Shown here piece by piece: positions 98 to 43,635 of a stretch of DNA of 64,000 nt (position 1 is its first letter; the number at the start of each line of letters is the position of its first letter). Source of the DNA: Acidobacteriota bacterium (GTDB taxonomy: Bacteria; Acidobacteriota; UBA6911; RPQK01; JAJDTT01); NCBI GenBank assembly GCA_028874215.1, contig JAPPLF010000003.1, positions 25,813 to 89,812 of the forward strand, read 5' to 3'. The notes beneath the pieces were generated by a model. The model made no database searches, was not told where the DNA came from, and saw only the letters and a program-made list of their open reading frames with translations. Both the position numbers and the translations under genes were made by a program.

Positions 98-153
98 GGG
101 GGGGACTTCCAGTCCCCCCTAACCCCCCCGGGACGGCGACAGGAATGTCGCCG
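98..153. repeat. Two adjacent hairpin repeats
   Basis: Two perfect hairpins lie in the leader of the first gene. Positions 98-119 pair GGGGGGACT with AGTCCCCCC. Positions 134-153 pair CGGCGAC with GTCGCCG around the loop AGGAAT and are followed by CTCC. The second has the same loop and the same CTCC tail as hairpins at 27101 and 40784, but a different stem. There is no T-tract, so a terminator role is not evident. Confidence 0.7.
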
Positions 154-223
154 CTCCGCCCTTGCGGGAAACGCTTTCCCGGCATACTCTTTGACCTCGA
201 ATCTCTCAACTGAGGTCCCCACC

Positions 224-7833: not shown

Positions 7834-7913
7834 GCAGGACCGAAAAACCGTAGGGGCAGCCCTTGTGGCCGGCATCCATTGCGCAAGAGGTTGCCACCGG
7901 AGGAAGGGAACCA

Positions 7914-7935
7914 GGGGGGACAAGACTGTCCCCCC
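7914..7935. repeat. Intergenic hairpin repeat
   Basis: Perfect 8-bp stem GGGGGGAC/GTCCCCCC around AAGACT, followed by CTCC. It lies between divergent genes. It shares the GAC...GTC closing pairs and CTCC tail of the window's hairpin family but not the usual loop. Confidence 0.55.
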
Positions 7936-8036
7936 TCCTGCTCTCCTGGAGACAACCGGCGGTGGACGCTGTACCATGAGGCCAGCGCGGGAGACGGCTC
8001 CCGCCTTTCCGTGGTTTCCAACCGGAGGTTGCTCTC

Positions 8037-9305: not shown

Positions 9306-9830
9306 ATGCTTCCCCGTTCTACTTTCCTGAAGGCTTCTTTGGTCTTCCTGGCGGCGGCTCTGCCGGGTTGCGGAGGCGGAAACCCCGCAACCGAGGCGGA
9401 GCGGGAGGCGCGGGAAGAAGCATTCCGGCAATCCATGTCGGGAGTCGTGCTGGAGGGATTCTTCACCGTCGGCGAAGGCTCGGAACTGCGGAAGGAAAGG
9501 TACGAAGTTGCCAAGGTCTCGAAGCTGGGCGGTGATATCTGGGTCTTTCAGGCCCGGATCCAGTATGGGAGCCGCGACGTCACGGTGCCGGTGCCGGTGC
9601 GGATGGAGTGGGCCGGGGACACGCCGGTCCTGAGCCTGACGGAGGTCGCCATCCCGGGCTTGGGCACCTTTACGGCGCGGGTCCTCTTCTACGACGATCA
9701 GTACGTGGGCGTCTGGCGCCACGGAGAGGTCGGCGGGCTGCACTTCGGGCAGATTGTTCCGGAATCGGCGGTTGGGAAACCGCCGTTCCAAGAATCGGCG
9801 GTTGGGACACCGCCGCTCCCGTCGGAATAG
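9306..9830 (+). CDS. Hypothetical lipoprotein, C-terminus made from hairpin repeats
   Basis: A 174-residue predicted lipoprotein: the leader ends in the lipobox LPGC (Cys22), followed by a polar Gly/Glu-rich linker and a beta-rich domain of about 110 residues with no recognised family. The last about 22 residues (ESAVGKPPFQESAVGTPPLP) are encoded by two tandem copies of the window's GGCGGTTTCCC hairpin, so the original stop has probably been displaced by repeat insertion. The next gene (UxuA-like) starts 9 nt downstream, suggesting co-transcription. Function unknown. Confidence 0.6.
   Translation: MLPRSTFLKASLVFLAAALPGCGGGNPATEAEREAREEAFRQSMSGVVLEGFFTVGEGSELRKERYEVAKVSKLGGDIWVFQARIQYGSRDVTVPVPVRMEWAGDTPVLSLTEVAIPGLGTFTARVLFYDDQYVGVWRHGEVGGLHFGQIVPESAVGKPPFQESAVGTPPLPSE
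9761..9818. repeat. Tandem hairpin repeats inside a coding 3' end
   Basis: Two copies, 30 bp apart: 9766-9785 pairs CGGCGGTT with AACCGCCG, and 9796-9815 is the same stem with one internal mismatch. Both are read in the opposite orientation to the 13700 and 24974 elements. Each is preceded by GAAT and the second is followed by CTCC. Confidence 0.7.
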
Positions 9831-13642: not shown

Positions 13643-13676
13643 GGCGTTGCGGCCACGAACTCTACCATTTTGGCTC

Positions 13677-13864
13677 GGCGGCTTTCCAGCCGCCGCACCG
13701 GGGCGGCGGTTTCCCAACCGCCGATTCCCGAGTTGCAGGCGGACGCGTGCAAGACCGGGCGATTGGGAAATCACCCTTCCGCTCGGGGCGGCGGTTTCCT
13801 AACCGCCGATTCCTGAGTTGCCGGGGGACGCGTGCAAGACCGGGCGATTGGAAATCGTCCCTCC
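13677..13864. repeat. Cluster of hairpin elements with two tandem 80-bp units
   Basis: A lone hairpin (13677-13694, GGCGGC/GCCGCC, loop TTTCCA) is followed by two near-identical units at 13700-13780 and 13785-13864. Each unit has a left hairpin GGCGGTT/AACCGCC, a spacer with GGACGCGTGCAAGACC, and a right hairpin starting GGGCGATTGG and ending CCCTCC or CCCTTCC. The right hairpin resembles the left one inverted, so each unit is a head-to-head pair like a BIME. It lies between divergent transporter genes. Confidence 0.8.
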
Positions 13865-13880
13865 TGGTTCCCTGTGCTGT

Positions 13881-21805: not shown

Positions 21806-22675
21806 ATGAAATCTCTTCCCGAGAGCTACTTCGCCGCACGAGGTTTCCGGGAAACTTCATATGAATCGCTGAACCAGGCTCTGATGCTCGTTCTCGAACA
21901 GATGGAGCCGACGGTCTATGGCGACGTCACTCGGGAAATGCGGGCCGTGGAGCAAGACGTCCCTCGTCAAGGCTGTCTGGTCCTGGAACCGCAGCCGGAG
22001 CCTGATCCACTGGCTCAGACCACCGTCCAATCTGCCGCGAAACATGCCCTGATGCTCGTTCTCGAACAAATGGAACCGACGGTCTACGGCAACGCCACTC
22101 GAGAGCTGACGGTCGAGGAGCAGGACGTCCTTCGTCAAGGGGGTCTGGTCCTGGAGCCGCAGCCGGGGCCTGATCCACTGGCTCAGACCACCGTCAAATA
22201 TGCCGCCATCGTCACGCGGAGCCTTTCGAGCAAGGCTGCGAGCCGTCGGCTCGGACTGAGCCCGGGCCGGATTCGCCAGATGATCGGAGATCGATCGCTG
22301 TACAGCTTTCTGATCGGCCATCGCCGTTACGTTCCGGACTTCCAGTTTCAGGGTAACCGGTTGGTGTCCAACATCGCGGGAGTCAACAAGGCGCTCCCGA
22401 GTGATCTGCATCCTGTTGAGGTGTACAACTGGTACCACTTGCCGAATCTGGATCTGTACCTGGATGAGGACATCGATCACACCATCCGACCACTGGAATG
22501 GCTGAAGGGAGGATACGACGCCGAGCGAGTGGTGTTTCTCGCCAACCGCATGAGGGGGCGCCATGGCCAAACTTCCGAACAGACCAGATCCGGTCAGACT
22601 CCAGCGCCTTCCTCCGAGCTTGGTCTCACTTCGCAGCGGGACTCCGCTACACCGAATCTATCGGCGCGGCGGTGA
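21806..22675 (+). CDS. RES-associated antitoxin with internal duplication
   Basis: A 289-residue protein preceding a RES-domain toxin. The ATG at 21806 has AAGGAGAT upstream. The body (about residues 130-250) has an HTH-like segment SKAASRRLGLSPGRIRQMI, then YSFLIGHRRYVPDFQF and a C-terminal RPLEWLKGGYDAERVVFLA resembling the Xre/DUF2384 antitoxin tail. Two 56-residue repeats precede it, each beginning ALMLVLEQMEPTVYG and ending with PDPLAQTTV, encoded by a 168-bp tandem duplication. The final about 38 residues overlap the toxin start by 113 nt and look like run-on sequence, hinting at a frameshift or lost stop. It should neutralise the toxin and repress the operon. Confidence 0.75.
   Translation: MKSLPESYFAARGFRETSYESLNQALMLVLEQMEPTVYGDVTREMRAVEQDVPRQGCLVLEPQPEPDPLAQTTVQSAAKHALMLVLEQMEPTVYGNATRELTVEEQDVLRQGGLVLEPQPGPDPLAQTTVKYAAIVTRSLSSKAASRRLGLSPGRIRQMIGDRSLYSFLIGHRRYVPDFQFQGNRLVSNIAGVNKALPSDLHPVEVYNWYHLPNLDLYLDEDIDHTIRPLEWLKGGYDAERVVFLANRMRGRHGQTSEQTRSGQTPAPSSELGLTSQRDSATPNLSARR
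21878..22213. repeat. 168-bp in-frame tandem duplication
   Basis: Copies at 21878-22045 and 22046-22213 within the antitoxin gene. They are nearly identical over long stretches (for example CTGATGCTCGTTCTCGAACA) with scattered mainly conservative changes, so the duplication is recent on the scale of the locus yet old enough to have diverged. Confidence 0.9.
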
Positions 22676-24973: not shown

Positions 24974-25052
24974 GGGGCCGGCGGTTTCCCAGCCGCCGAT
25001 TCTTATTACCAAAGCAAACGAGGGAAACCGGGCGATTGGAAATCATCCCTCC
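24974..25052. repeat. 80-bp paired-hairpin element
   Basis: Same plan as the units at 13700-13864: a left hairpin GGCGG/CCGCC around TTTCCCAG, a diverged spacer, then ACCGGGCGATTGGAAATC and a CCCTCC tail. Ends are conserved while the centre is not. It lies between divergent genes. Confidence 0.75.
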
Positions 25053-25140
25053 CACGCCGTGCCGTTCCCATCGGTGGAAACGGACACGGCGCACTTGCCA
25101 CGGACCGGCCGGCATGTTGCCATGGAACCGAGGTGATTCC

Positions 25141-27099
25141 ATGAGCATCAACAACACATTCCGCCGGTTTCCGATTCTCTTCCTTTTCCTCCTCCCCTCC
25201 TGCGGTGGGGATCCGGTCCGGGAGGCGCGGCACTGGCTCGAGTTGGAAAGCGGCGAACTGACGCTCGGCATCGACCGGGACCTGTCGCTCTCGGTCTACT
25301 ACGGCTCGGAACCCACTCCCACGTGGAGATCGGAGACGCCCGGCGTCGAGGTCCGGGCTTCCGGTTCCCCGGAGCAGAACAGTCCGCGCACTCTGAGCTG
25401 CAAGGATGCAGCCCGGCAACGAGCGGAAGAGTACCGGGAGGGCGAACTGGAAGGCTACCGGGTCCGGTTGAGCGGATGGGAAGACACCGACGCCGTCCTG
25501 GGGTGCGACGTGGCTCTGGACCGGCAAGGCCAGCTCCACGTCCAGGTGTCGCAGGCCGGGGGCAACGACGTGATCCGGGAGGTCTTGGACCTGTACACGT
25601 TGGCCCTGGAGCCGGACCCGTCGTCCTACCTGGTGGTCCCCTGGGGTTCCGGATACATGATCCGGTCCGACTCTCCCGGCCCGGTGTCTCTCGCCGGCCT
25701 TCTTGGAGCCGAGTACAGCCTGCCCCTAGTCGGACTGGTGGCAGGCGGGCGGGCGGCCTACACGATCGTCGACACCTGGTGGAACGCGGCCGTCCGCGTG
25801 GATCACGATCCGGGCCGGCACTCCCGGATCGCCCTGGACTGGAAGGCCTCGTTGGACAGTCTGAGCTACCCCCGGCGGGCTTTTTGGGTCTTCGACCGGG
25901 AACAGGACCACGTGGACATGGCCAAAGCCTACCGGCGGCACGTGGAGGCCACCCGTTCCCTGCCCACCCTGAGTGATCGCATGGCCTCCGAACCGGGCTT
26001 GAAGCGGTTCCTCTCGGGGATTGAATACCGGCTCATCACCTGGAACCCGGAGCACCACCCGCAGGTGCTGGAGAACATCCGCCGCTTCCAGGCCGCGGGT
26101 CTCCCGGTCACCTTCTTTCACCCCAAGTGGCCGGCGGGGGAGAGGACGCCGGCCGGCTGGCAGGAGTACCTGAGAGAAGAGCCGACGGTGGCCGGGGGAT
26201 GGCCGGCGGCCCGACGGCTGGAGGAGCAGGCCCACGCCCTGGGGTGTTCCGTCAAATTCTTCGTCATGCCCCACGTCTTCCACGAGGACGCACCCTACTA
26301 CGACCCGTCCAAGCTCAGCGGCGTCGATTTCCCCCGGTTCAGCGACGCTTACGCGTTGGAAGCCCTCAAGGCCCTGCTGGATCACGTCCAGGCCAAGGGA
26401 TTGAGAATGGATGCCCTCTACTTCGACGGCCACGCCGCCCATCGGGGGCACTCGGAACACCAATCGGCGGAGGGCCCCATTACTCGCCGGATGACCTATG
26501 AGACGCAGGTGGAGACGTTCCGGGAGGCCCGGCGGCGGGGAATCGTCCCCGGCGCCGAGTTGGCCCGTTTCTGGTGCATGGGGGAGAGCGACTACTTCTT
26601 CTTTACCGACTGGTCCCGGGACCGGCTCCGGGAAGGCGAACCGATCCCTCTGTTCCAGTTGGCATTCAACGACTGCTACGCGGCGCACTTCTCGGGCGGC
26701 GGCTACTATTTCGCCCCCAAGTATGACTGGTACGCCGACCGCCACCCCCGGCTCTACGAACTCATGTACGGGGCCATGCCCTCCCACAACTGGCTTCCGG
26801 GAGGAGAAGCGCTGATTGAAAAGCACCATTGGGAGACCGGCGCCATGAAGCGGCGCCTGGAATGGCTCCGCCTCTGGCATGCCTACTTTCAGTCGGTGGG
26901 ATACGCCGAGATGACCAGCCACCAGTTCCTGAACGGCGACCGCACCCGGCAGCGGGTCGAGTACGCCAACGGTGTCTCGGCCGAGTTCGATCTGGCTCAG
27001 GGCCGGTTTCGAGTTCAGGGAGTCGAGGTGATCGAGGAAGACTGGCAGGAGCCTCCGGCGGTCGTTCCGATAGCGGGAGAAGAAAAGAGAGAAGAGTGA
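25141..27099 (+). CDS. Lipoprotein, predicted TIM-barrel glycoside hydrolase-like
   Basis: A 652-residue lipoprotein (lipobox LLPSC, Cys21). Residues about 30-250 form a beta-sandwich-like N-terminal part; the rest looks like a (beta/alpha)8 barrel with FLSGIEYRLITWNPEHH, PVTFFHPKWP, SVKFFVMPHVFHED, MDALYFDGHAAHRGH and GIVPGAELARFWCMGESDYFF. The pattern recalls DUF5696/GH101-like enzymes, in which aspartates at strand ends act on glycans, but the assignment is tentative. ATG at 25141 gives the lipoprotein leader. It is flanked by hairpin repeats on both sides and converges with the large cytochrome gene. Confidence 0.6.
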   Translation: MSINNTFRRFPILFLFLLPSCGGDPVREARHWLELESGELTLGIDRDLSLSVYYGSEPTPTWRSETPGVEVRASGSPEQNSPRTLSCKDAARQRAEEYREGELEGYRVRLSGWEDTDAVLGCDVALDRQGQLHVQVSQAGGNDVIREVLDLYTLALEPDPSSYLVVPWGSGYMIRSDSPGPVSLAGLLGAEYSLPLVGLVAGGRAAYTIVDTWWNAAVRVDHDPGRHSRIALDWKASLDSLSYPRRAFWVFDREQDHVDMAKAYRRHVEATRSLPTLSDRMASEPGLKRFLSGIEYRLITWNPEHHPQVLENIRRFQAAGLPVTFFHPKWPAGERTPAGWQEYLREEPTVAGGWPAARRLEEQAHALGCSVKFFVMPHVFHEDAPYYDPSKLSGVDFPRFSDAYALEALKALLDHVQAKGLRMDALYFDGHAAHRGHSEHQSAEGPITRRMTYETQVETFREARRRGIVPGAELARFWCMGESDYFFFTDWSRDRLREGEPIPLFQLAFNDCYAAHFSGGGYYFAPKYDWYADRHPRLYELMYGAMPSHNWLPGGEALIEKHHWETGAMKRRLEWLRLWHAYFQSVGYAEMTSHQFLNGDRTRQRVEYANGVSAEFDLAQGRFRVQGVEVIEEDWQEPPAVVPIAGEEKREE

Positions 27100-27100
27100 A

Positions 27101-27126
27101 GAGTGGGGACAGGAATGTCCCCACTC
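27101..27126. repeat. Perfect hairpin between convergent genes
   Basis: Perfect 10-bp stem GAGTGGGGAC/GTCCCCACTC around the loop AGGAAT, the same loop as the hairpin at 134-153 with an entirely different outer stem. It fills the 33-bp gap between two convergent genes and could act as a factor-independent barrier, though no T-run follows. Confidence 0.75.
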
Positions 27127-27132
27127 CTGCCC

Positions 27133-31536: not shown

Positions 31537-33323
31537 CGAGTCAACCGGAAGCAACGGAGATCATGGGGCCTGTCCGGCGGAATCCCCCTCGGTACCTGTC
31601 CGATCTGGATCGCTGCCTTCCGGCCTCGGCGCTGAGCCGGGAGGGCCGGCTCTTCGGCTGGCGGATGATCGACTACGAGACGGAGCACTTCAAAGGCATC
31701 ATGCTGCGGGCCGGACCCGAGACGGCGGCCGCCGCCGTGGAATATCCCCTGGAGCCGGAAGGGTGGCACGATGTCTACCTGGGATTGTTCAATACCGCTT
31801 GGAGGCCGTACCTGGATCAGCGCCTCTGGGTGAAATTGACGGAAGACCCCGCCTTCAGTTGCCTCTTTCTCCAGGCTCCCGACGTCGAAAAGGGTCAGGT
31901 GATCCAGGACCTGTTCTGGAGGACCGCCGACCTGACGGGACAGCGCCTGAGCTTCAAGCAGGTGGCCACCGAGCTGATCCCCGACGGCCATCCCTGCCGC
32001 AGCACCTGCGACACGGTCTGGGTTGCCTACATCAAATTGGTCCCCCTCGATGCCGATGAGGTCACGGCGCTTCAATCAGACCGGAAACAGACCGGCACCC
32101 GAAGGCTCTTCGCCACCCAGGACTGGGGTTCGGGTTTCGCCTGGGATGCCGGCGAGGGGGCGATCCGGGACCAGTTGGAGGCCTACCGGCACACCGACTT
32201 CAAGCGGATCTACTGGGAGGGGGCCGCCGGCGACCTCTGCTCCTACTTCAGCCGGGTCGCCAGGACCTGGACTCCGGAATACGCGCGGATGGAGGACTAT
32301 CCGGTTCCCGCCTACCGGCGGATCGTGGAGAACTTCGCCGAATACGAGAAGCGGGGGATCGATCCCTTCCGCGTCGCCATCGACTACAGCCACGAGCTGG
32401 GACTCGAGTTCCACGCCAGCTACCGGTTCTGCGAGGGCATGGGGCCGTTTCACTTCTCCCCGCCCTTCGACCAGATCAACCGGGGAGGATTCTACGACCG
32501 GCATCCCGAACTGAGAGCGGTGCGCCGGGATGGCAGCCGGGCCCCCAGGATCTCGTTGAGCTACCCGGAGACCCGGGAGTTTTTGATCTCGCTCTTCCTG
32601 GAGATGGCCGGGTATCCCGTCGACGGGATCTCGATTCTCTACAATCGCCGGCCTCCGTATGTCGAGTACGAGCCGCCGGTGGTGGATGGATTCCGGGAGA
32701 AGCACGGCCAGGACCCCCGGGAGATCGACGAGAGAGATCCGCGTTGGCTTCGTTTCAGGGCGAGCGTTCTCACCGGTTTCATGCGGGAGCTCCGGGAGAG
32801 GATGCACCGGCAGGCCCGCCGCCAGGGACGTGCCCGGCCGCCGGCCCTGTCGGCGTGGGTCTTCGGCGGCGAAGAGGAGAACCTCTTCTATGCCATGGAC
32901 GTGCCCGGCTGGATCCGCGAGGGCCTCATCGACGGCGTCGTCCCCTATACCTCGGCCGAGGGTCTCTTCAGTTGGGAGTTGGCCTGGGAGAGGGCCGGGG
33001 ACGTCGAGTATTGGCTGTCGCTGACTCGGGGAACGGAATGCGAGCTGGCACTCAACGTCATGCCCAGGGTCTTGATGCCCGAACAGTACCGGAGGAAAGC
33101 CCACCAGCTCCTGAAGGCCGGCGTTCCCTACCTGGCGTTCTGGGACAGCTCCAAGACCTGGGCCGTCGACAAGATCGACGCGGGGTCCTACCAGCACCTC
33201 CGTCGGCTCGGCCACACCGAGGAGTTGGACGACTGGATTCAGGCCGGCGAACCGGACCTGGTCCATGCCTCGACGCCTCTGACCAAGGTGGGGGAGTGGG
33301 AGATGACGTTTATCGCCGAATAG
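31533..33323 (+). CDS. Predicted glycoside hydrolase-like TIM-barrel protein
   Basis: A 596-residue protein. The N-terminal 190 residues are beta-rich (EGWHDVYLGLFN); then a barrel-like region carries FKRIYWEGAAGDLCSYFS, GIDPFRVAIDYSHELGLEFHASYRF, MAGYPVDGISILYNRRPPYVEYEPP and LPALSAWVFGGEE-like strands. This recalls GHL10/DUF187-type hydrolases, but family and catalytic residues were not firmly assigned. A ribosome site GGAGAGGAG precedes ATG 31533. As annotated it lacks an export signal, yet a Tat-like leader sits immediately upstream in another frame. Confidence 0.6.
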   Translation: MTSQPEATEIMGPVRRNPPRYLSDLDRCLPASALSREGRLFGWRMIDYETEHFKGIMLRAGPETAAAAVEYPLEPEGWHDVYLGLFNTAWRPYLDQRLWVKLTEDPAFSCLFLQAPDVEKGQVIQDLFWRTADLTGQRLSFKQVATELIPDGHPCRSTCDTVWVAYIKLVPLDADEVTALQSDRKQTGTRRLFATQDWGSGFAWDAGEGAIRDQLEAYRHTDFKRIYWEGAAGDLCSYFSRVARTWTPEYARMEDYPVPAYRRIVENFAEYEKRGIDPFRVAIDYSHELGLEFHASYRFCEGMGPFHFSPPFDQINRGGFYDRHPELRAVRRDGSRAPRISLSYPETREFLISLFLEMAGYPVDGISILYNRRPPYVEYEPPVVDGFREKHGQDPREIDERDPRWLRFRASVLTGFMRELRERMHRQARRQGRARPPALSAWVFGGEEENLFYAMDVPGWIREGLIDGVVPYTSAEGLFSWELAWERAGDVEYWLSLTRGTECELALNVMPRVLMPEQYRRKAHQLLKAGVPYLAFWDSSKTWAVDKIDAGSYQHLRRLGHTEELDDWIQAGEPDLVHASTPLTKVGEWEMTFIAE

Positions 33324-33325
33324 GA

Positions 33326-33438
33326 GGGGGGACTGTTCGTCCCCCCCTGTTTCCTGCTGCCACGCAACTTGCTGGATGGATAGTGGAGAGAGGGACTCTG
33401 TTCCGCTACCCCCCGCTCCCGGCGACTAAAAGTCGCCG
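33326..33438. repeat. Two hairpins between convergent genes
   Basis: 33326-33346 pairs GGGGGGAC with GTCCCCCC around TGTTC; 33421-33437 pairs GGCGACT with AGTCGCC around AAA and is followed by CGCTCC. The second overlaps the TAG stop of the minus-strand gene at 33426. They share stem style and CTCC tail with the other hairpins, with divergent loops. Confidence 0.55.
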
Positions 33439-34631
33439 CTCCTTTCCGGCCGGATCAGGCCTTGCTGTTCCCAGGCGGCCAGCCTCTGTTGGAGTTCCCG
33501 GGAAGCCTTGTCGCCTGATTTGAGGGCGATGAAGTTCCGGAACTCCCGGGCGGCGCCGGCGAAGTCCCTTTTCTGGGCCAGGATGGCTCCGTGGACGTAG
33601 TGGCTTCCGGCGAGGTATCTCTTGGAACCGTTCTCCCGGACCGCCTTGATCGACTTCAAGGCCCGGTCCAGCCGGCCCAGTTGCAGGTTGGCGACGGCGC
33701 TGAAGTACTGGGCCCGCATGATATGCGGATTCAGGCCGACGACGTGGTCGCAGTTGCGCGCCGCTTCCTCCCAGGACTCATCCCGGACCGCCATCATGGC
33801 CAGAAACATGTAGGGCCGCAGGTACTTGGGATCGGCGTCCGCCGCCCTTCGGAAATGCTTCCGGGCCGTCTCCCGGTCCCGGAGAGCATGGTGGCATCGG
33901 CCCAGGAGGTACCAGGCGGCGGCGAACTCGGGGTAGAGTTCGATGGCCTCTTTCAGGTGCCGGATGGCCTTCCGGACGTCCCCCTGCTGCTTCTTCAGCT
34001 CCAGGTCGGCCTCCCGGTAGTGCCTCTGCGCCTTCTTGGGAGCAGCGAGGGTGTTGAAGCTGACCGTCGAACCGCCCACGTGTTCCAGGCGCCTCAGTAC
34101 GATCACTCCCACGTCCGAGCTGTCCATGTAGCTGCGGACACCCAGGGAGATGGTGTTGGACCGGAAACCTTCCAGCGCCGTCCGGATCACGCAACCGCTG
34201 AGATCGAATCTCTGGGCATCCTGGCGTTCCCCGGGAACGCGGGAAAAGGGATCGAAGGTGTCGGAGCCCGTTCCGGCGCGGTTGTTGGACCCCCCGCTGC
34301 CGCCCAACTCGAAGCTGAACCGGCCTTCGTCTCCGTAGGTGTGAGTCTCCTGCCGGACCGAGCCGCGGCAGACCAGCTCGACTTTGAGGGACTCGGGGAG
34401 GGGATTTCCGTCCTCCAGGATCACCTGTCCGGCCAGCAGCAGCCGCTTCGGGACCTCGATACGGTTGTCATCGAAGCTTCTACCGGTGAGGTCGGCGTCC
34501 TGCGGCCGGTCGTCAGTCGTCCCGAACAGAGGACCCGGCCTGACGTTCTGGGCCGGAGACACGGGCACGAGGAGCAGCGGCCCGGCCAGCAACGCCGCCA
34601 GCCGGAACCGGGTCAGCTTGTATCTACACAT
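33426..34631 (-). CDS. Exported carboxypeptidase-like/TPR protein, copy B
   Basis: A 401-residue protein with a signal peptide ending at PVSPAQN. Residues about 60-170 form a carboxypeptidase-regulatory-like beta domain (LLLAGQVILEDGNPLPESLKVELVC ... FDLSGCVIRTALEGF) with conserved cysteines. After GSTVSFNTLAAPKKAQRHYREA comes a set of about five tetratricopeptide repeats (AIELYPEFAAAWYLLGRCHHALRDRETARKHF). It is a clear paralogue of the next gene upstream, 23 bp away. Start ATG 34631. It is probably periplasmic or envelope-anchored; function unknown. Confidence 0.8.
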   Translation of the reverse strand: MCRYKLTRFRLAALLAGPLLLVPVSPAQNVRPGPLFGTTDDRPQDADLTGRSFDDNRIEVPKRLLLAGQVILEDGNPLPESLKVELVCRGSVRQETHTYGDEGRFSFELGGSGGSNNRAGTGSDTFDPFSRVPGERQDAQRFDLSGCVIRTALEGFRSNTISLGVRSYMDSSDVGVIVLRRLEHVGGSTVSFNTLAAPKKAQRHYREADLELKKQQGDVRKAIRHLKEAIELYPEFAAAWYLLGRCHHALRDRETARKHFRRAADADPKYLRPYMFLAMMAVRDESWEEAARNCDHVVGLNPHIMRAQYFSAVANLQLGRLDRALKSIKAVRENGSKRYLAGSHYVHGAILAQKRDFAGAAREFRNFIALKSGDKASRELQQRLAAWEQQGLIRPERSGDF

Positions 34632-40715: not shown

Positions 40716-40730
40716 TCGGAGCGGAGCGGA

Positions 40731-40807
40731 GCGGCGGTTTTCCTACCGCCGGTTCTTTGGCCATGCGCGAACGAAGCGGAACCGGGCGACAGGAAAGTCG
40801 CCCCTCC
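40731..40807. repeat. Paired-hairpin element between convergent genes
   Basis: Left hairpin 40733-40750 (GGCGGT/ACCGCC, loop TTTCCT) and right hairpin 40784-40803 (GGGCGAC/GTCGCCC, loop AGGAAA), with GGTTC after the left stem and CCTCC at the right end, as in the elements at 13700, 13785 and 24974. The right stem differs from theirs by compensated pairs. Confidence 0.75.
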
Positions 40808-43635
40808 TAGCGCAATTCCACGGCCGACAGGATGGGCCAGACACCGCCGGCCGGAGAGGTGAAGACGGCCCGGTACTGGGCCCAGCGGCGGGTTCCATCC
40901 AGGCCGGCGATCCCGGTTCCGGACTCCTGGTAGAAGGAGCTGGCGCCGGAGGGCCCGGTCCACTCGGCGGATTCCAGGCCGTCGCGGCTGGACGCGGTGC
41001 GGACCTGGAACTGCAGTCGGGCTCCGTGGGGCTCCTCCCCCTCCCAGATCAGCCGGACGCCGCCGCGTCCGGGTAGTTCCAGCGGCGGCGAGAGGTATTC
41101 CTCCTCCAAGCGCCGGGTGTAGATGTCCCCCGGATCGGTCATCTGGCTGTAGTGGGGACCGAAGCTGGGGATTTCGGTCTTCCGGTCCCGGTGGAACCCT
41201 TCAGGGCCGTTCCAATAGATGTAAGTGTTGATGGAGTGGTCACCGTCTTTCATGTGATTGTGGACCACGATCTCGGGCCAGCCATCCCGGTTCAGGTCCA
41301 CCGTCTGGATGGCGGAGGAGGAATAGGCGGGAAGATCGGTCCGGTTGGTCCGGCTGTAGGCGCCTCCTTCCCCGCCCCAGTAGATGAACACCGGCAGGGT
41401 GCGGGTGCGGCCCGACATGTAGTTGGACAATACCAGGTCCAGGTGTCCGTCCCGGTTCAGGTCGGCGATGCCGCACTCGATGGGCGAGTGACCCTCCAGC
41501 TCCACCTTGTTCTCGAGCGTGGGAACCCCTTCGGCGGTCCCCCAGAGCAGGTAGCTGTTGCCGGTGTAGGTCCGGGTCTCGGGGTCGAAGCTCCCCACCA
41601 GCATGAAATCCAGGTTTCCGTCCGAATTCAGGTCGGCCAGTTCCACGTTGCCGGCCGGCAGCACCCGGCTCCAGCTCCGCTCCGGCGAGTAGCCGTCTTC
41701 GGCGCCCCAGAAGATCTCGTAGATGCCGTACCAGCTCCCGGGGAAGAGCAGGTCCAGATGGCCGTCCCGGTTCAGGTCCGCCACCCGGTTGTTGGTGCAC
41801 CTCTGGTTCTTCAGGGGGAGCGAGGTCCGGCGGGCGTCGGAGTAGCCCTCTTCTCCGCCCCAGTAGACGGTCCCCAGCTTCCGGCCCCGGCCGTGGGTGA
41901 AGACCAGCTCCAGGTAGCCGTCCCGGTTCAGATCAGCGGCGCTGACCCCATGGGCGTTGGCGGCGGCCAGCTCCTGGCGGTTCCCGGGGGAGTAGCCGTC
42001 CCGGCTGCCCCAATAGATCCAACTGTACCCGACGTAGGAGTTGGTGAGGACCAGATCGTTGAAGCCGTCGTCGTTGAGGTCGGCGACGGCGACGGCGTAG
42101 GCGCCGTGGCCCGGCAGGGCCGTGCGGGACGCCGTGGAATAGTAGTGGTGGGGGTTGCCCCAGTAGATGTTGTTCAGGACCTGGCCGGCGTGCTTGCCGC
42201 TCCACCGGTTCACCAGCACCACATCCAGGTTTCCGTCGAGGTTGAGGTCAGCCAGGTTGACGCTGTTGCCGCCGAACCCCTGCAGTTCGGTCCGCATATA
42301 CGGCGCGAAGCCGGTGGAACTTCCCCAGTAGACGTACGAGGGCACGTCGGCGGACTGACCGTCATGGGCGTTGGCGAAGACCAGGTCGAGGTGACCGTCC
42401 CGGTTCAGGTCGCCCGAAGCCACGTCGGCCGGGGCCAGGGTCGGGAGCTGGGACCGCAGTTGCGCCGAGAAGCCCTCTGCCCCGCCCCAGTAGACGTAGG
42501 ACTCGGGCAGCGGCTCCCCGTTCGAGGAGTTGGACACGGCCAGATCCAGGTATCCGTCCCCGTTCAGATCGGCGATGTCCGAGCCGGTGGGAGCGATGGC
42601 GGGAAGGGTCTGGCTGGGAGATGGGACCGGCCCGTCCTTCCCTCCCAAGAACAGGAGGACGTTGCCGTCCCGGGCGCCCTCACCCGACACCGTGACCACC
42701 ACGTCGTCGAAACCGTCCCGATCCAGGTCGCCGGTCCCGATGCTCCCGGGAGGAGCCGTCTCCGCCTCCCACGAGCGGTCAGCGGCGTAGACGCCCTGGC
42801 GGCCAAAAAAGATCTGGACCCCTTTCGATTGAGGGCTGTTGTTGATGAAGATCAGGTCGGGGTCCCCGTCCCCGTTCACGTCGCCGCCGGCCACGTCCCG
42901 GGCGCCGCGGGTGGGAACCAGTCCCGGGCGGTCGGGATCGAAACCGTTGGCGCTGCCCCAGTAGATGTAGGAGGAGAGATCCACCTTGGGCGAAATCTTC
43001 TCAGCTCCCGCTTCCACCCCCTGATTGGCGAAGACCAGGTCCACGTATCCGTCGGAGTTGAGGTCCCGGGCCACGACGCCCGCCGCCCACCGGGTGGGCA
43101 GTTCGGTGCGTCCGACGCGGGAATACCCGTCCCGGCTCCCCCAGTAGACGTACGCCGTCCGGACGCCCGGATAGTTGTGGATGTAGTTGCAGAAGACCAG
43201 ATCGGGGAATCCGTCCCGGTTCAGATCCGCCACCGCCGACCGGCCGCCGCCGAAGGAGGGGAGCCGGGTCACGTGATCGGTCCGGTCCATCAGGCCGTAG
43301 ACCACCTGCGCCAGAGGCCGTTCCCTCCAGAGTTCGGGGAGAAGGGAGCGGGGGCCGTCGGCGCTGCCCCAGTAGACGAGAGCGTCAACCACGCTCATGT
43401 TGTCGTGGGTGTTGCTCAGGACCAGGTCCACGTGTCCGTCCCGGTTCAGATCCCACTGGTTGATGACCTGGACGGTCCCCTTCCTGGAAACGTAGACGTT
43501 CGCCCCTGCGTTCCCCAGGGTCCCCTGGCTGAAGTCCTCGAAGCCGGAATGGCGGATGGCGCCGTCCCTGGCCGGCGAAATTCCCATGAACCCGGACCAA
43601 AGGACACAAAAGACCGCAAGCCCCCGAACTGGCAT
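40807..43635 (-). CDS. Exported FG-GAP/VCBS repeat protein, 14 repeats
   Basis: A 942-residue protein with a signal peptide (AVFCVLWSGFMGISPA). About fourteen repeats carry the calcium-binding D-x-N-x-D-G core: DLNRDGHVDLVLSN, DLNRDGFPDLVFCN, DLNSDGYVDLVFAN and so on, each followed after about 30 residues by YWGS. Fourteen FG-GAP units suggest two seven-bladed integrin-alpha-like propellers. The C-terminal about 110 residues form a separate beta domain. It is probably a large surface or periplasmic protein for adhesion or ligand binding. The redoxin gene lies just upstream (19 bp) on the same strand, suggesting one operon. Confidence 0.85.
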   Translation of the reverse strand: MPVRGLAVFCVLWSGFMGISPARDGAIRHSGFEDFSQGTLGNAGANVYVSRKGTVQVINQWDLNRDGHVDLVLSNTHDNMSVVDALVYWGSADGPRSLLPELWRERPLAQVVYGLMDRTDHVTRLPSFGGGRSAVADLNRDGFPDLVFCNYIHNYPGVRTAYVYWGSRDGYSRVGRTELPTRWAAGVVARDLNSDGYVDLVFANQGVEAGAEKISPKVDLSSYIYWGSANGFDPDRPGLVPTRGARDVAGGDVNGDGDPDLIFINNSPQSKGVQIFFGRQGVYAADRSWEAETAPPGSIGTGDLDRDGFDDVVVTVSGEGARDGNVLLFLGGKDGPVPSPSQTLPAIAPTGSDIADLNGDGYLDLAVSNSSNGEPLPESYVYWGGAEGFSAQLRSQLPTLAPADVASGDLNRDGHLDLVFANAHDGQSADVPSYVYWGSSTGFAPYMRTELQGFGGNSVNLADLNLDGNLDVVLVNRWSGKHAGQVLNNIYWGNPHHYYSTASRTALPGHGAYAVAVADLNDDGFNDLVLTNSYVGYSWIYWGSRDGYSPGNRQELAAANAHGVSAADLNRDGYLELVFTHGRGRKLGTVYWGGEEGYSDARRTSLPLKNQRCTNNRVADLNRDGHLDLLFPGSWYGIYEIFWGAEDGYSPERSWSRVLPAGNVELADLNSDGNLDFMLVGSFDPETRTYTGNSYLLWGTAEGVPTLENKVELEGHSPIECGIADLNRDGHLDLVLSNYMSGRTRTLPVFIYWGGEGGAYSRTNRTDLPAYSSSAIQTVDLNRDGWPEIVVHNHMKDGDHSINTYIYWNGPEGFHRDRKTEIPSFGPHYSQMTDPGDIYTRRLEEEYLSPPLELPGRGGVRLIWEGEEPHGARLQFQVRTASSRDGLESAEWTGPSGASSFYQESGTGIAGLDGTRRWAQYRAVFTSPAGGVWPILSAVELR

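Follow-up and report, generated by a model that had tools for sequence, protein, structure and literature searches.

REP sequences, REPINs and RAYT genes are well described as a kind (PMC2817692, PMC3116915, PMC3733652, PMC6006769, PMC8266576). In Pseudomonas, E. coli and Stenotrophomonas, the REP/REPIN/BIME systems consist of hairpins of 20-24 nt with an unpaired tetranucleotide on the 5' side, which occur in hundreds of copies and as inverted doublets with a fixed spacer, lie between genes and often behind them, and are accompanied by a REP-flanked RAYT (PMC2817692, PMC3116915, PMC3733652). The elements described here, from a 64-kb window (the whole stretch of DNA that was analysed, 64,000 nt) of an Acidobacteriota genome, G000, are alike in each of these respects. 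However, their foot is GGAG (or GGGG or GGAA) where that of the known systems is GTAG or GTGG, their stem has the form GGCG-NN with a TTCC-type loop, and they belong to one genus only. Likewise, the GTAG and CGTC super-families (Di Nocera 2013, PMC3733652) share the architecture, the dimers with termini outside and the location of our elements, but the tags described in the main text of that work are GYAG, GYRG, GTRG, GTMG, GTGG or CGTC, rather than GGAG.

On the side of the enzyme, E. coli TnpAREP/RAYT (4er8) and the TnpAY1 classes (Quentin 2018, PMC6006769) have in common with the RAYT of this genome (C53, P0001) an HUH motif, a single catalytic tyrosine in YIxxNP and the WQxx(Y/F)WxxxIR guide-contact region. 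The feet reported for the TnpAY1 classes are GT[AG]G, or CnGA in class 3 (PMC6006769), as opposed to GGAG here, and our RAYT differs from E. coli TnpAREP in having an arginine at the position aligned to H101. In the main text of the compared REP/RAYT papers on tags GGAG does not appear, an earlier mention in their figures and supplements being possible, and a literature search for GGAG together with REP returned, among the matches listed, only unrelated typing and primer papers. A previous inspection of the window from its letters alone, the sequence-only reading, had suggested that the family may be new. This stands in part: the family is restricted to its genus and its tag was not found in that literature, but the kind to which it belongs is well described.

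Architecture of the units

Four units in the window share one plan, as the sequence-only reading had proposed (Table 1). When aligned, they have in common a left end, GGRG-CGGCGGTTTYCYAACCGCCG-ATTC, and a right end, CCGGGCGAtt-rGGAAA-tCgCCC-yTCC, on either side of a variable centre of 30-34 nt. The kept ends and varying centre of the original proposal are both borne out, but the CCTCC outer end is not constant, as unit 1 has CTTCC. The minus strand of the right end reads GGAG-GGGCGATTTCC(T)AATCGCCC, an element of the same type as that at the left. Each unit consists of a REP hairpin and, about 33 bp further on, another REP facing the opposite way. This inversion accounts for the complementary loops, since a single hairpin type is read on opposite strands. 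REPIN 4 folds in its entirety as one long hairpin (DNA fold -21 kcal/mol). The window also contains REPs that had been overlooked, a pair at 9766-9819 and singles at 130-157 and 33420-33442, and has no match to an Rfam family at the gathering threshold.

Table 1. REP-type features of the window and the RAYT gene of the genome. R1, covariance model trained on 17 units including REPINs 1-4, whose R1 scores indicate consistency only; R2, single-REP model.
Feature	Position	Strand	Score and remarks
REPIN 1	13700..13783	+	R1 95 bits; R2 44.3 and 41.5 bits
REPIN 1, left REP	foot 13700-13703, hairpin 13704-13723		foot GGGG; 33-nt spacer follows
REPIN 1, right REP	hairpin 13757-13776, foot 13777-13780	-	foot GGAA
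REPIN 2 (tandem copy)	13785..13865	+	R1 86.9 bits; R2 44.1 and 39.7 bits
REPIN 2, left REP	foot 13785-13788, hairpin 13789-13808		foot GGGG; spacer follows
REPIN 2, right REP	about 13842-13864	-	foot GGAG
REPIN 3	24975..25053	+	R1 66.7 bits
REPIN 4	40728..40808	+	R1 76.4 bits; GGAG foot on both sides
Older hairpin CGGCGGCTTTCCAGCCGCCG beside REPINs 1 and 2	13676..13695	+	present at the site in all sister genomes
REP, GGAA + CGGCGGTTTCCCAACCGCCG	9766..9789	-	R2 34.9 bits; in frame, 3' end of ORF 9306-9830
REP, GGAG + CGGCGGTGTCCCAACCGCCG	9796..9819	-	R2 34.5 bits; tandem with REP 9766..9789
REP subtype, ATTCC loop, GGAGCGGCGACATTCCTGTCGCCG	134..157	-	R2 23.1 bits
REP subtype, GGAGCGGCGACTTTTAGTCGCCG	33420..33442	-	R2 24.6 bits
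RAYT gene (P0001)	G000 contig C53 22214-22981; L023 4212-4982	-	

We surveyed the feet of perfect hairpins with a stem of at least 8, without presetting the foot, in about 0.35-0.48 Mb of each of four genomes (G000 and its sister species G001, G002 and G003). GGAG preceded hairpins 13-17 fold more often than expected from composition in all four, and GGGG and GGAA feet were enriched as well in G000. In this unbiased count GTAG did not rank with the leading feet of G000. The family is a REP/REPIN family with a RAYT, and by its tag it lies outside the GTAG super-family. In a set of 169 distinct G000 hairpins, collected by a GG-R-foot pattern and hence with the foot class preset, 104 had GGAG, 35 GGGG and 28 GGAA. 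When hairpins were selected on the foot and outer stem only, three variable stem pairs were fully paired in 92/107, 44/99, 30/59 and 61/76 cases in the four genomes, against shuffled means of 41, 5, 5 and 14. The dominant loop differs between species (TTCCTA in G000, TTTCCT in G003, TTTCTT in G002, mixed in G001), as does the arrangement: inverted doublets with their feet outward have a spacer of 30-34 bp in 21/22 cases in G000, and head-to-tail arrays are commoner in G001 and G003.

A predicted pairing between the foot and the cleavage dinucleotide behind the hairpin was considered and rejected. In an initial set of 106 G000 copies, a GGAG foot was associated with ATTCT and a GGGG foot with ATTCC (Fisher p 0.02-0.04), but the prediction failed on 63 held-out copies, where the trend was reversed (p 0.18), and for all copies together p = 0.39.

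Three further kinds of repeat were observed in the window. Hairpins of the form GGGGACA-ATTCC-TGTCCCC with GAGG/CCTCC ends lie at 7916-7938, 27099-27128 and 33322-33354; this subtype has 41 copies in the genome (control 0) and probably belongs to the same REP superfamily with a different stem. A degenerate, GTAG-footed hairpin at about 7850-7874 (gtagGGGCAGCCCTTGTGG...) resembles another REP family, of the canonical GTAG type, which abounds in G001 (gtagGGGCACCCCTTGTGGGTGCCC, gtagGGGCGACCCTTGTGGTCGCCC). Finally, positions 21871-22206 hold a tandem pair of 168-nt copies that are 86% identical.

Copies, positions and turnover

The sequence-only reading had suggested a search for the conserved ends in this genome and its relatives, and had named few further copies, or confinement to one type of operon, as grounds against it; what was found is many copies, behind unrelated genes. 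The left-hairpin seed GCGGTTTCCCAACCGCCGATTC, with at most 3 mismatches, occurs at 100 places in the 5.7 Mb genome (reversed control, 0), which supports the units independently of their R1 scores. With covariance models, G000 has at least 159 single REPs (E<=0.1) and at least 80 REPINs, and the three sister species of the genus have at least 45, 52 and 74 REPINs. Of 56 further genomes from the order, class and phylum, 55 had no match to the REPIN model and one, G019, had 2. When only the GGAG foot and the outer stem were fixed, a pattern search gave 298-672 matches per genome in the four genomes (control 2-5). Several copies sit at contig ends.

REPs usually lie between genes, shortly after a stop codon. 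In 417 kb of G000 (83% coding), part of which was picked for containing REPs and in which genes were called by a simple codon-usage script, 87 of 102 REPs are intergenic by these gene calls, against about 18 expected. The median distance from a G000 REP to the nearest gene 3' end is 8 bp, and spacers between divergent genes are few among REP sites (6 of 51, compared with 38 of 153 spacers).

The sites themselves change between closely related species, in flanks that are about 85-97% identical at the sites compared. At the position of REPINs 1 and 2 (13700-13865), both G003 (flanks about 94-97%) and G002 (flanks 89%) carry different GGAG-type hairpins within the same common edges; the G001 contig is interrupted at this point. 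The site of REPIN 3 (24975-25055) measures 17 nt in G001, from which the REPIN is absent, against 93 in G000, and in G003 it is occupied by a different REPIN-like element. The site at 9762-9819 holds two REPs in G000 and a single one in G003, and is free of REPs in G001 and G002. The joins at empty sites are not base-clean: the junctions differ by a few bases and have no duplication of the target. The REPs at 9766-9819 were also seen to lengthen the C-terminus of ORF 9306-9830 in frame, by 17 codons in G000 and 7 in G003, and the four species together form a natural series for the insertion of REPs at the end of a coding sequence.

The RAYT gene and its tag

The window has no RAYT gene, in agreement with the sequence-only reading; the two Y1_Tnp genes of the genome lie on contigs C53 and C11. 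The gene on C53 encodes the motifs PNHVHVLF (HUH, HVH) and EYIRENP, with the catalytic tyrosine, as well as a W-x3-YWDRLIR block. It matches the model of REP-associated tyrosine transposases (NF047646) with E=5.7e-21, at 74.9 bits under the curated cut-off of 80, compared with E=4.9e-5 for the IS200 model NF033573, and matches PF01797 (Y1_Tnp) at 28.8 bits, over the cut-off of 23. Its best match in the PDB is E. coli TnpAREP, 4er8. No upstream ATG is present, and a GTG start was assumed. Two REPINs lie directly upstream of this start (L023 5012-5180), and immediately beyond the 3' end of the matched region is a single hairpin (L023 4260-4277) that overlaps the last part of the open frame. Thus, a Y1 gene flanked by the same hairpin, for which the sequence-only reading had advised a search, does exist.

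Relatives of this RAYT are present in all three sister species (63-68% protein identity), and the hairpins that flank several of them are of the type of the respective species. In G000, G001 and G002 the gene is at the same position, where it is about 79% identical in DNA in G001, next to a left flank of 88-92%, and about 79% in G002, between flanks of 83-88%; a RAYT on G003:C477 is 77% identical beside a 92% flank. The RAYT gene is thus less alike than its flanks, which fits the fast evolution reported for rayt genes (PMC2817692). A second copy in G002 (G002:C15 79521-80179; L100, L216) is split over three frames, adjoins GGAG REPs and is apparently decaying.

The gene on C11 (G000:C11 16328-16603) was rejected as the mobiliser, as no GGAG hairpins surround it. 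It is TIRYT-like: as in the TIRYT elements of Acidobacteria (PMC3733652; GGGGWSAS), GGGGACAG-type repeats lie nearby, and it is not flanked by GGAG REPs. Several GGGGACAGTCTGTTTC-type repeats were observed beside it (L024 1373-2160).

REP tags are thought to be guide sequences that set the position at which the transposase cuts. A scan of named genomes yielded 80 RAYT relatives, all more distant than those of the sister species, and we scored the tag as the foot of repeated hairpins adjoining them. Clear GGAG feet were found in Kiritimatiellae, Hydrogenedentota, Verrucomicrobia/Akkermansiaceae, Fibrobacter intestinalis, Ereboglobus and rumen Bacteroidales, and GTAG feet beside other relatives. 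Exact copies of the GGAG repeat number 40 in a Kiritimatiellae genome and 12 in F. intestinalis (controls 0). On a tree of 43 RAYT proteins with many unresolved deep forks, the GG/GT label changes 4 times, compared with about 12 times when shuffled (0/500 as low). The small number of changes indicates that the tag type follows the descent of the RAYT, and the GGAG tag marks an apparently undescribed REP/RAYT lineage in several bacterial phyla.

In E. coli, H101 is reported to touch the guide tag (PMC6006769). The aligned residue is arginine in 28/29 GG-tag and 4/14 GT-tag RAYTs (Fisher 5e-6), and arginine at this place is also reported for some GTAG subclasses. We rejected the association between Arg/His and tag as established, since descent confounds it and about 2 independent pairs support it, none significantly, and treat it as a lead only. 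We would give even odds to the joint proposal that, in addition to GTAG and CGTC, there is a third tag class made up of GGAG-REPs with their RAYTs, which occurs in this genus and in at least five phyla (Kiritimatiellota, Hydrogenedentota, Verrucomicrobiota, Fibrobacterota, Bacteroidota), and that a T-to-G switch at tag position 2 accompanies a His-to-Arg change in the guide-contact loop, forming a readable protein-to-guide code.

Origin of the units

The copy number, the pairing of a REP with an inverted REP, the intergenic sites and the REP-flanked Y1 gene all support the sequence-only reading of REP/BIME-like elements mobilised by a RAYT. We infer, with a probability of roughly 0.9, that the units are REPINs, miniature non-autonomous elements spread through the genome by the Y1/HUH RAYT encoded on C53. 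The steps of single-strand binding, cleavage and transfer follow the literature on TnpAREP of E. coli and Stenotrophomonas. By this analogy, the RAYT would bind the REP hairpin in single-stranded form, taking the four-base foot GG(A/G)(G/A) as its guide, its catalytic tyrosine would cut, and the single-stranded REPIN would be transferred to new sites, probably during replication. Insertions would survive mainly just behind genes.

The same position behind genes could be read in another way, with the hairpins as conserved regulatory or terminator RNA structures, immobile and selected at gene 3' ends. The median distance of 8 bp from a gene end, the good folds and the covarying stems are what such structures would show, but the copies are interchangeable across unrelated genes, and sister sites with about 85-97% identical flanks hold none, one or different hairpins. 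Rather than being better conserved at orthologous positions than their flanks, the repeats show the opposite at the compared sites; in addition, hairpins surround a transposase gene and no Rfam family matches the window. We regard immobile RNA structures as very improbable, although inserted copies may have a secondary RNA role. It is slightly less probable still that the REPs are degenerate, immobile remnants on which a domesticated RAYT now performs another role. The common position of the RAYT in G000, G001 and G002 fits the view of RAYTs as domesticated transposases (PMC8266576), but the near-identical copies, the species-specific dominant REP types and the turnover of sites between close species speak against it.

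Short paired inverted ends, many copies and intergenic location would also be expected of MITEs of an ordinary DDE insertion sequence with terminal inverted repeats. However, each end of a unit is a hairpin in its own right, with an unpaired foot that is constant, and the gene that the units flank is of the Y1/HUH type. Moreover, the target-site duplications for which the sequence-only reading had proposed to look did not appear with any consistency in the doublets of the four genomes: a flanking direct repeat of at least 3 nt accompanies 0/29 doublets of the three sister species and 3/22 in G000 (shuffled 0.9). The lack of target-site duplication is as expected for a Y1 transposase, and we give the DDE origin almost no credence. 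Returning to REPINs mobilised by the RAYT, we argue from the sequence comparisons that this REP system has probably been active in recent evolutionary time.

This reading explains a recurrent repeat of a poorly known genus and gives presence/absence data at defined sites. In addition, the GGAG lineage offers a natural example of another guide base; comparison of its enzymes and tags, both between phyla and among four close species, would provide material for testing how guide specificity evolves.
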